A stretch of DNA of 48,725 bases from a bacterium (lineage in GTDB: Bacteria > Patescibacteriota > Minisyncoccia > Phycocordibacterales > Phycocordibacteraceae). The number at the start of each line of letters is the position of its first letter. Positions within the stretch are counted from its first letter, which is position 1. This document shows positions 15,915 to 30,906 of this stretch, one piece after another. The translations under genes were made by a program, and so were the position numbers. The stretch covers positions 1 through 48,725 of the forward strand of contig JAJYHK010000019.1 of the NCBI GenBank assembly GCA_021784815.1, in the 5' to 3' direction. The notes beneath the pieces were generated by a model. It was given only the letters and a program-made list of their open reading frames with translations, ran no database searches and was not told the DNA's origin.

Positions 15915-15991
15915 GCCGCCTTAGCTCAGTTGGTTAGAGCAACGCTTTTGTAAAGCGTAGGTCCTCGGTTCGAATCCGAGAGGCGGCTCCA
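15915..15991 (+). tRNA. tRNA-Thr (anticodon TGT), CCA encoded
   Basis: GCCGCCT...AGGCGGC acceptor stem, TAGCTCAGTTGGTTAGAGCA D-arm, ACGCT-TTTGTAA-AGCGT anticodon arm, GGTTCGAATCC T-arm, T+CCA. Confidence 0.95.
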
Positions 15992-28906: not shown

Positions 28907-30661
28907 TTACGCGCGTTCGAGGATTTCTTTTTCAATCTTCGCGATGAACGCATCGAGCGCAAGGCCCTCAAACTTGCCGTGGTCGCGGCTCTCCGCGGTG
29001 ACCGCCTTCGTTTCCATTTCGGCGTTCCCGAGCACGAGCACGTAGGGGAGTTTCTCCTGTTTAGCGGCGCGGAGGCGTTTGCCGAGCGACTCGTTGCTTG
29101 CGTCGAGTGTGGCGCGTATGCCTTGAGCGTTGAGCGCGGCAAGCACTTCTGCTGCGTATGTGTGGTGCGTTTCGCCAATCGGCAGCACGCGCACTTGCTC
29201 CGGGGACATCCATAGCGGGAACGCGCCACCGTAGTGCTCGATGAGGAATGCGAACACGCGCTCAAGAGAACCGATTGTCGAGCGGTGAATCATAACGGGC
29301 CGCTTCTTTTGCCCGTCGCGATCAACGTATTCGATGTCGAACTTTTGCGGCAGCAGAAAATCCATTTGCGCGGTGAAAAGCGTGTCTTCTTTGCCGTTTA
29401 CGTTCTTTGCTTGAACGTCGAGCTTGGGCCCATAGAATGCCGCCTCGTCTTCTGCTTCGGTATAGGCGAGGCCGAGCTCATCGAGCGATTCTTTCATTAC
29501 CTGCTCGGCGTGGTTCCACATCTCGTCGTCAGGGTAGTACTTTTCCTTATTATTGGGGTCCCGCTTTGAGAAGCGATAGGTCACGATATCGAGCAGTCCG
29601 AGCCCGCGCATCCCGTCGATGATCATGCGGCATACATTTTTGAACTCATCCTTCAACCCCTCTGGCGTTACGAAAAGGTGGCCGTCAGTGAGCTGGAACT
29701 TGCGTACGCGGATCATGCTCATGAGCTCGCCCGACTTTTCGTACCGGTTGTAGTCGGCTATTTCCGCGTAGCGTACTGGCAGCTCCTTGTAGCTCCAAGG
29801 ACGGCGCTGGTACATACGAATGTGGTGCGGGCAGGCCATGGGGCGGAGGTAGAACTTTTCCCCGTCCATATCGATGGGCGCGTACATGTTGTGGGCGTAG
29901 TGGTCAAGGTGGCCTGACGTTCGGTAGAGCTCCTCGGCGCCCAGGTACGGCGTCTCGATGTGTTCGTAACCGTATGCCCGTTCGAGTTCGCGCGCAAAAT
30001 TTTCCATCGCGAATTTAATAGCGGTCCCTTTTGGTGTCCACATGGGGAGGCCTTTGCCGACTTTTTCGTCGATGAAGAAGAGGTCGAGTTCCTTGCCGAG
30101 TTTTTTATGATCGCGCGCGCGCGCCTCTTCGCGTTGCGCTCTGTAGGCATCGAGCTCCGCTTTGGTGTCGAAGGCAAGGCCGTAGATGCGCGTAAGCATC
30201 GGTTTCGCTTCGTCGCCGCGCCAGTAGGCGCCAGCGACCCGGTCGAGGCGGAAAGAGTCGGGCGCGATGTCCGCAGCCGGTTCCTCGCTGTGGCCGCCGC
30301 GGCACAGGTCGGTAAATTCGCCGGCAGTATAGAGCGTGATGAGCTCGCCTTTTGATTCGATTTCGTTAATGAGATCAAGCTTAAAGGGGTTAGTTTTGAA
30401 GCGATCGCGCGCGTCCTTGGCTGAGGTTTCTACGCCGCGCATCGTCTTCCACAAGGGAAGGAGTTCGCGCATGAGCGCCTCGAGTTCAGGGAGCTCCGCT
30501 TCGCCGGGAGCAGCGCCACCCGAGAAGTCGAAGTCGTAGTAGAAGCCGGTGTTGATCGCCGGACCGATGGTCGGTTTCGCGTGCGGATAGCGTTCAAGCA
30601 CCGCCGCTGCGAGCAGGTGGGCGAGCGTGTGGCGTTTTGCGTCGAGGTTATTCATGGTCAT
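28907..30661 (-). CDS. thrS: Threonyl-tRNA synthetase (no N-terminal TGS domain)
   Basis: HTLAHLLAAAVLERYPHAKPTIGPAINTGFYYDFDF, DLCRGGHSE, GAYWRGDEAKPMLTRIYG, RPMACPHHIRMY, MIHRSTIGSLERVFAFLIEHYGG. Confidence 0.96.
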   Translation of the reverse strand: MTMNNLDAKRHTLAHLLAAAVLERYPHAKPTIGPAINTGFYYDFDFSGGAAPGEAELPELEALMRELLPLWKTMRGVETSAKDARDRFKTNPFKLDLINEIESKGELITLYTAGEFTDLCRGGHSEEPAADIAPDSFRLDRVAGAYWRGDEAKPMLTRIYGLAFDTKAELDAYRAQREEARARDHKKLGKELDLFFIDEKVGKGLPMWTPKGTAIKFAMENFARELERAYGYEHIETPYLGAEELYRTSGHLDHYAHNMYAPIDMDGEKFYLRPMACPHHIRMYQRRPWSYKELPVRYAEIADYNRYEKSGELMSMIRVRKFQLTDGHLFVTPEGLKDEFKNVCRMIIDGMRGLGLLDIVTYRFSKRDPNNKEKYYPDDEMWNHAEQVMKESLDELGLAYTEAEDEAAFYGPKLDVQAKNVNGKEDTLFTAQMDFLLPQKFDIEYVDRDGQKKRPVMIHRSTIGSLERVFAFLIEHYGGAFPLWMSPEQVRVLPIGETHHTYAAEVLAALNAQGIRATLDASNESLGKRLRAAKQEKLPYVLVLGNAEMETKAVTAESRDHGKFEGLALDAFIAKIEKEILERA

Positions 30662-30876
30662 AAGTGAGTGTAATGAATAACGAAAATAGCCCGAGCGAAC
30701 ACGGAAGGCGATTTCCGTACTCGCTAGGGCGATCTTTCTTTATAACCGCGGTTCCACCTAGCTTTCTGTCGCGAGAGCAACAGACACTTCGTTATTCGGA
30801 TTAGGCTTTTCGCTTCCGCTCTTTTCCCGAGAGAGCGGGACCTCGGTTGGTAGCCGAAGCAATCTCCGATAGGAGC
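30662..30876 (-). promoter_or_regulatory. T-box-type leader of thrS
   Basis: Minus strand CTAGGTGGAACCGCGG (canonical T-box) at 30747-30762; antiterminator 30723-30762; competing 18-bp terminator stem 30689-30730 followed by UAUUUU. Confidence 0.88.
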
Positions 30877-30906
30877 AATCTAGCACTTGGGTGCCACGCC
30901 GGTCAA
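30877..30906 (-). promoter_or_regulatory. Promoter upstream of the thrS T-box leader (TTGACC-18-TAGATT)
   Basis: Minus-strand TTGACC at 30901-30906, TAGATT at 30877-30882. Confidence 0.6.

Follow-up and report, generated by a model that had tools for sequence, protein, structure and literature searches.

A probable T-box riboswitch with a compact specifier domain upstream of thrS in Patescibacteria

Does the short leader that precedes the threonyl-tRNA synthetase gene of a patescibacterial genome act as a tRNA-sensing switch and, if it does, with what would it read the tRNA? The leader lies within a 48,725-nucleotide stretch of DNA (contig JAJYHK010000019.1, the window) from what we take to be a tiny uncultured member of the Patescibacteria. 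T-boxes of the termination type grip the elbow of the tRNA with a long Stem I, and ultrashort forms of Stem I have been described for translational T-boxes, which depend on a Stem II containing an S-turn and on a IIA/B pseudoknot (PMC7583486, PMC10651847). An elbow-binding Stem I is held to be needed by transcriptional T-boxes, which must capture the tRNA by the time the polymerase arrives at the terminator (PMC7583486). The element upstream of thrS is very likely (probability about 0.93) a genuine T-box riboswitch that acts by transcription attenuation and has a compact architecture; this assessment rests on no binding, probing or expression data.

The thrS leader and its predicted switching elements

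An earlier inspection of the letters (the original prediction) had proposed a T-box with a transcription-attenuation layout, thrS as its target and a Patescibacteria-like host. All three proposals held: every named element is present in the sequence, the T-box itself is supported by the RF00230 match, covariation and homologues, and the downstream gene matches TIGR00418 with 595 bits (cut-off 384, E 1.6e-178). The proposed promoter is likewise present as described (Table 1), and TTGAC...TGCTA is also found upstream of three homologues from the same genus (L029, L030 and L044). Transcription is inferred, from sequence alone, to start near 30870, shortly 3' of the -10 box. The specifier domain begins ∼8 nt downstream of the -10 box, a few bases past this predicted start, so that no bigger Stem I can be hidden upstream.

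Table 1. Features of the thrS locus in the window
Feature	Positions	Strand	Composition	Basis
Promoter	30877..30906	-	TTGACC (30906-30901), 18-nt spacer, TAGATT (30882-30877) in extended -10 TGCTAGATT	sequence
Specifier domain	30796..30869	-	P1 UCGGA/UCCGA, joint GAUUG, P2, P3, P4, joint CUAA	covariation, folding
P2 specifier hairpin	30841..30859	-	CUUCGG-CUACCAA-CCGAGG, 6 bp, 7-nt loop	covariation
Specifier codon	30849..30851	-	ACC (Thr), read by tRNA-Thr(GGU)	conservation
P3 hairpin	30816..30838	-	CCGCUCU/AGAGCGG	predicted fold
P4 hairpin	30805..30813	-	GC-GAAAA-GC	predicted fold
Purine string	30785..30790	-	GAAGUG (RRRNG rule), before Stem III	sequence
Stem III hairpin	30765..30784	-		RF00230 alignment, MFE
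Antiterminator	30723..30762	-	A1 GCUAGG/CCUAGC, bulge UGGAACC, A2 GCG/CGC; strands GCUAGG-UGGAACC-GCG (30762-30747) and CGC-CCUAGC (30731-30723)	RF00230 alignment, A1 covariation
T-box bulge	30750..30756	-	UGGAACC; UGGA complementary to tRNA-Thr UCCA 3' end (U73)	
Intrinsic terminator	30683..30730	-	18-bp stem (30730-30689), GCCCUAGC common with the antiterminator, then UAUUUU	folding
thrS	28907..30661	-	threonyl-tRNA synthetase, 584 aa	TIGR00418
tRNA-Thr(UGU)	15915..15991	+	discriminator U73	ARAGORN

Rfam searches at the gathering score over the whole window returned nothing except one tRNA. At a relaxed threshold, the RF00230 search that had been suggested for the leader gave a match at 30796-30725 with 30 bits and an E-value of 4.4e-5, short of the gathering threshold of 93 bits and confined to model positions 152-216, that is, to Stem III and the antiterminator in the 3' half of the leader. 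The leader as a whole has a minimum free energy (MFE) below that of shuffled sequences (z -4.1). A Tymovirus tRNA-like match returned by Rfam on the opposite strand (E 0.38) was dismissed as chance.

The Stem III-like hairpin and the antiterminator with its 7-nt bulge had both been predicted, and both held. Stem III is flanked as required by the RRRNG-Stem III-AA motif (PMC7778990), which GAAGUG-Stem III-AA satisfies. The bulge is matched by the tRNAs of the genome, where tRNA-Thr with anticodons GGU, UGU and CGU are encoded (the GGU isoacceptor, which reads ACC, at G000:C16:14736) and all carry U73, a discriminator shared, among the tRNAs found in the genome, only with tRNA-Cys. The variable base of the T-box sequence is A in 64 of 66 thrS leaders and G in the other two, and C or U in the non-thrS T-boxes of our collection. 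Among thrS T-boxes, eight (L057, L061, L064, L070, L072, L074, L076 and L078) show no clear Stem III hairpin, its position being taken by an A-rich stretch.

The terminator was predicted to share CCUAGC with the antiterminator and so to form a mutually exclusive fold. This held, and extends beyond the window, as the 5' arm of the terminator contains the 3' strand of the antiterminator in 71 of 73 homologues (median terminator energy -31.9 kcal/mol). For the window leader, the terminator stem is calculated at -25.7 kcal/mol and the antiterminator at -11.7 kcal/mol, which suggests that termination is the default and that tRNA is needed to stabilise the antiterminator, as is likewise the case for known transcriptional T-boxes.

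Covariation provides further support for this anatomy. Across 74 distinct sequences, including that of the window, pairing is kept in 96.7% of cells and both partners vary at 16 of the 20 base pairs; the covariation score stands at 0.573 (0.210 in shuffled controls), double-change cells number 294 (83 in shuffled controls), and the signal collapses when pairing partners are slid by 1–3 columns. This alignment was fitted to a covariance model; a model-independent MAFFT alignment of six sequences leads to the same conclusion (12 of 20 pairs, 0.537 versus 0.224). The covarying helices are P1, P2 (the specifier hairpin) and A1 of the antiterminator. The leader satisfies the broad definition of a T-box, with its bulge, discriminator match, specifier, exclusive folds and Stem III flanks, and its anatomy, covariation, Thr codon, tRNA match and linkage to thrS are established by these comparisons. 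Our confidence in its identity and general mechanism is high, with tRNA binding and switching remaining inferences.

A predicted four-helix specifier domain presenting ACC

The original prediction remarked that Stem I looks short. This held but was an understatement, as the ∼75-nt specifier domain is predicted to form a four-helix junction in which neither a long Stem I nor an S-turn Stem II nor a IIA/B pseudoknot can be recognised. In all six pairs of P2 both partners vary (97% of cells paired), the closing pair of P3 appears as G-C, U-A, C-G or A-U across homologues, GNRA-type loops are common for P4, and the joints GAUUG and CUAA are near-invariant. S-turn, F-box and K-turn consensus sequences were sought in GAUUG and CUAA and none was recognisable; these joints might still form a tertiary motif. 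An alternative register for P1, AGAUU/AAUCU, was ruled out by the covarying forms CGGA/UCCG, CGAA/UUCG and CUUGA/UCAAG.

For the window leader, the unconstrained MFE favours an alternative fold of the 5' domain, lying 1.8 kcal/mol below the junction fold. Several homologues (L062, L101, L105 and L127) fold as a four-way junction without any constraint and, with P1 and P2 fixed, a four-way junction in which P4 ends just before CUAA is obtained for 49 of 71 homologues; after shuffling of the segment between P2 and CUAA, the mean falls to 5 and the maximum to 9 of 71. This segment is also more structured than its shuffles. Only ∼10 nt separate the junction from the Stem III flank, and we infer that the junction may stand in for the absent elbow-binding and S-turn modules. 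A review reports that a truncated Stem I without Stem II hardly binds tRNA (PMC7583486), and tRNA binding by the thrS junction is therefore not self-evident.

The specifier had been left undecided between ACC in the apical loop and an ACG further 3', and is now settled as ACC; the ACG candidate was rejected, being unconserved among homologues. The codon is ACC in 65 of 66 parsed homologues and ACG in the other, and a further thrS leader, L203, reads ACU, all three being Thr codons. The pattern used to search for homologues itself demanded ACC, and a codon-blind scan was hence made for hairpins of at least 3 bp with a 7-nt loop in 80 thrS leaders; ACC was found in 65 and the runner-up codon in 19. 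Within CUACCAA the codon occupies positions 3–5, and the loop is laid out like an anticodon loop (pyrimidine, U33-like base, triplet, A, A), and UACCA is complementary to UGGUA in the anticodon loop AUGGUAA of tRNA-Thr(GGU). The contact between CUACCAA and the tRNA may thus resemble the pairing of two anticodon loops, an inference for which there are no binding data.

Distribution in Patescibacteria

Searches with thrS identified relatives with the same leader layout (G006, G040, G042, G009, G056 and G024). A covariance model (R1), built from six of seven leaders including that of the window, gave matches at E<=0.1 in 72 of the order's 297 genomes, with the lowest-scoring matches proving to be other T-boxes, and its successor (R2) recovered thrS-linked copies in other classes of Patescibacteria. 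A scan of 85,462 genomes with an exact pattern gave 55 matches, 52 of which have thrS within ∼350 nt downstream; for the remaining three, less than 90 nt was left in the fetched stretch. All bacterial lineages named for these matches are Patescibacteria, including Kaiserbacteria, Adlerbacteria, Campbellbacteria, Taylorbacteria and Lloydbacteria, with 11 matches labelled just 'bacterium' and one 2-kb contig labelled Aenigmatarchaeota. The compact thrS architecture is so far confined to Patescibacteria.

Conservation in close relatives, on which the original prediction was made to depend, holds only in part. The element is present at 7 of the 30 thrS loci checked and at 5 of 22 within the same genus, leaving 17 same-genus loci without it, but it reappears elsewhere in the order and in further classes of Patescibacteria; at the loci that lack it the thrS leader is short or unrelated. 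The element has evidently been lost repeatedly, a direction of change inferred without a tree. Two thrS leaders of the same genus, L206 (G285) and L211 (G140), keep Stem III, antiterminator and terminator, with a promoter-like TTGACA/TACTAT immediately 5' of Stem III, and have apparently lost the specifier domain. Downstream of ten T-boxes (L079, L082, L091, L094, L098, L119, L123, L126, L127 and L131), the ThrRS aligns with that of the window only from residue 184, suggesting that its N-terminal TGS/editing part has been lost or has diverged, with the T-box kept.

A compact T-box had been expected to be notable in this lineage. T-boxes per se are not exceptional there: RF00230 at E<=0.001 matches 128 of 383 Patescibacteria genomes, only 13 of them above the Rfam cut-off, showing that T-boxes are widespread in the phylum and that the Rfam threshold misses most of them. 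A 2008 survey listed T-boxes in Firmicutes, Actinobacteria, Chloroflexi, Deinococcus and two Proteobacteria (PMC2494555). No paper on T-boxes in Patescibacteria was found in the open-access literature searched, and the one paper that combines riboswitches with Patescibacteria refers to riboswitches merely as tools (PMC11665869). TBDB tables were outside our search, and some of these T-boxes may already be listed in databases; 13 of the 383 genomes do pass the Rfam cut-off.

The genome of the window carries a second T-box, before aspS (L003, G000:C11:31564-31719), with GAC in the ultrashort hairpin GCUG-CUGACA-CAGC, an S-turn Stem II and a UGGC that matches G73 of tRNA-Asp. Apical specifiers are also seen in ileS (AUC), tyrS (UAC) and serS (AGC) T-boxes of the phylum; these and further ones make up a set (L004, L191, L222, L223, L186, L190, L187, L217 and L221), some members of which precede genes that resemble argG, proS and trpE on inspection of the protein starts. 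Larger T-box leaders with UGGC (L001, L006, L012 and L014) occur in the order.

Mechanism, rival explanations and known T-boxes

In the proposed mechanism, the nascent leader would fold into a four-helix junction that displays ACC in an anticodon-loop-like 7-nt hairpin loop, available for pairing with the anticodon GGU of tRNA-Thr. An uncharged tRNA would, in addition, pair its UCCA end with the UGGA bulge, blocking the terminator and allowing thrS to be transcribed; with threonyl-tRNA bound, or with no tRNA, the 18-bp terminator would form and thrS would be off. Binding of the tRNA, sensing of its charging and switching are all inferred, in the absence of binding, probing or expression data.

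Another way to account for the leader is autoregulation by ThrRS, which would bind it as a tRNA mimic, as happens at the thrS operator of E. coli. In favour of this view are the anticodon-loop-like size and arrangement of CUACCAA, the four-helix fold of the junction and the identity of the gene. However, the loop holds a codon, ACC, and not an anticodon for Thr (NGU), no role would be left for the UGGA bulge, U73 match, Stem III purines and competing terminator, and in the phylum aspS, ileS, tyrS and serS each have a T-box that carries the codon for its gene, all of which makes a ThrRS-binding mimic highly improbable. Alternatively, the element may be a decaying T-box that has conserved its discriminator and retains only a vestigial specifier domain no longer selecting tRNA. 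This is consistent with the absence of the whole specifier domain from L206 and L211 and of the element from most of the genus, but not with the strong constraint on P1, P2 and ACC in the 74 sequences, and we give it little credence.

Ordinary leader-peptide attenuation through Thr codons would explain the presence of a terminator, and can practically be discounted: inspection shows no ATG from the predicted transcription start to thrS, the sole short frame seen has a GTG start, overlaps Stem III and contains one Thr codon, and the conserved feature is RNA pairing rather than a reading frame. The T-box reading remains by far the best supported. If it is correct, a T-box that works through a terminator, reads tRNA with a domain of 75 nt and has neither accessory module would show how small an RNA can suffice for tRNA decoding, and the thrS junction offers a small construct for structural work. 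Amino-acid synthesis is mostly absent from Patescibacteria, which rely on hosts (PMC11665869); the inferred function would give these organisms, whose gene regulation is largely unknown, a response to amino-acid starvation.

Comparison with known systems places the leader apart. With the canonical class I T-box (RF00230, Firmicutes thrS leaders) it shares the target gene, the UGGN bulge, the competition between antiterminator and terminator, Stem III with its purine string, and a specifier ending in C and followed by A; unlike it, the leader lacks a long Stem I with an apical double T-loop (IDTM), a side-bulge specifier, an S-turn Stem II and a IIA/B pseudoknot, and carries a four-helix junction instead. 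The glycyl glyQS T-box likewise lacks Stem II and IIA/B but retains a long Stem I with the IDTM, which is missing here. An apical specifier on a short hairpin and the lack of an elbow-binding module are shared with the translational ileS T-boxes of Nocardia and Mycobacterium, in which the codon-anticodon duplex is secured, and the ribosome site sequestered, by a Stem II with an S-turn together with a IIA/B pseudoknot; in the thrS leader no S-turn or pseudoknot is recognisable and a U-tract terminator replaces the sequestrator. The aspS, ileS, tyrS and serS T-boxes of Patescibacteria have the same apical specifier, matching their own gene, and UGGN, with a terminator visible in several, but many of them keep a Stem II with AGUAGA and an F-box-like CCCGNAAUAGC, which the thrS type lacks. 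As a sequence motif only, the S-turn AGUAGA occurs in 3 of 78 thrS leaders versus 17 of 53 in a comparison set, 14 of which are thrS-type (UGGA/UGGG). Outside the T-boxes, the hairpin of the E. coli thrS operator mimics the anticodon NGU of tRNA-Thr, whereas the loop of the thrS leader carries ACC.

What is new is a T-box that has a terminator but neither a tRNA-elbow-binding module nor an S-turn Stem II, a departure from T-box architecture as published, and that does not have the architecture by which either of the two structural classes described so far is defined. A bolder reading, towards which the evidence tilts slightly and in which tRNA binding is inferred, is that it represents a third structural class, transcriptional in mode, whose four-helix junction presents an anticodon-loop-like hairpin. 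In such a class the tRNA would be decoded by contact between its anticodon and an anticodon-loop-like partner, without an elbow-binding Stem I or an S-turn Stem II.
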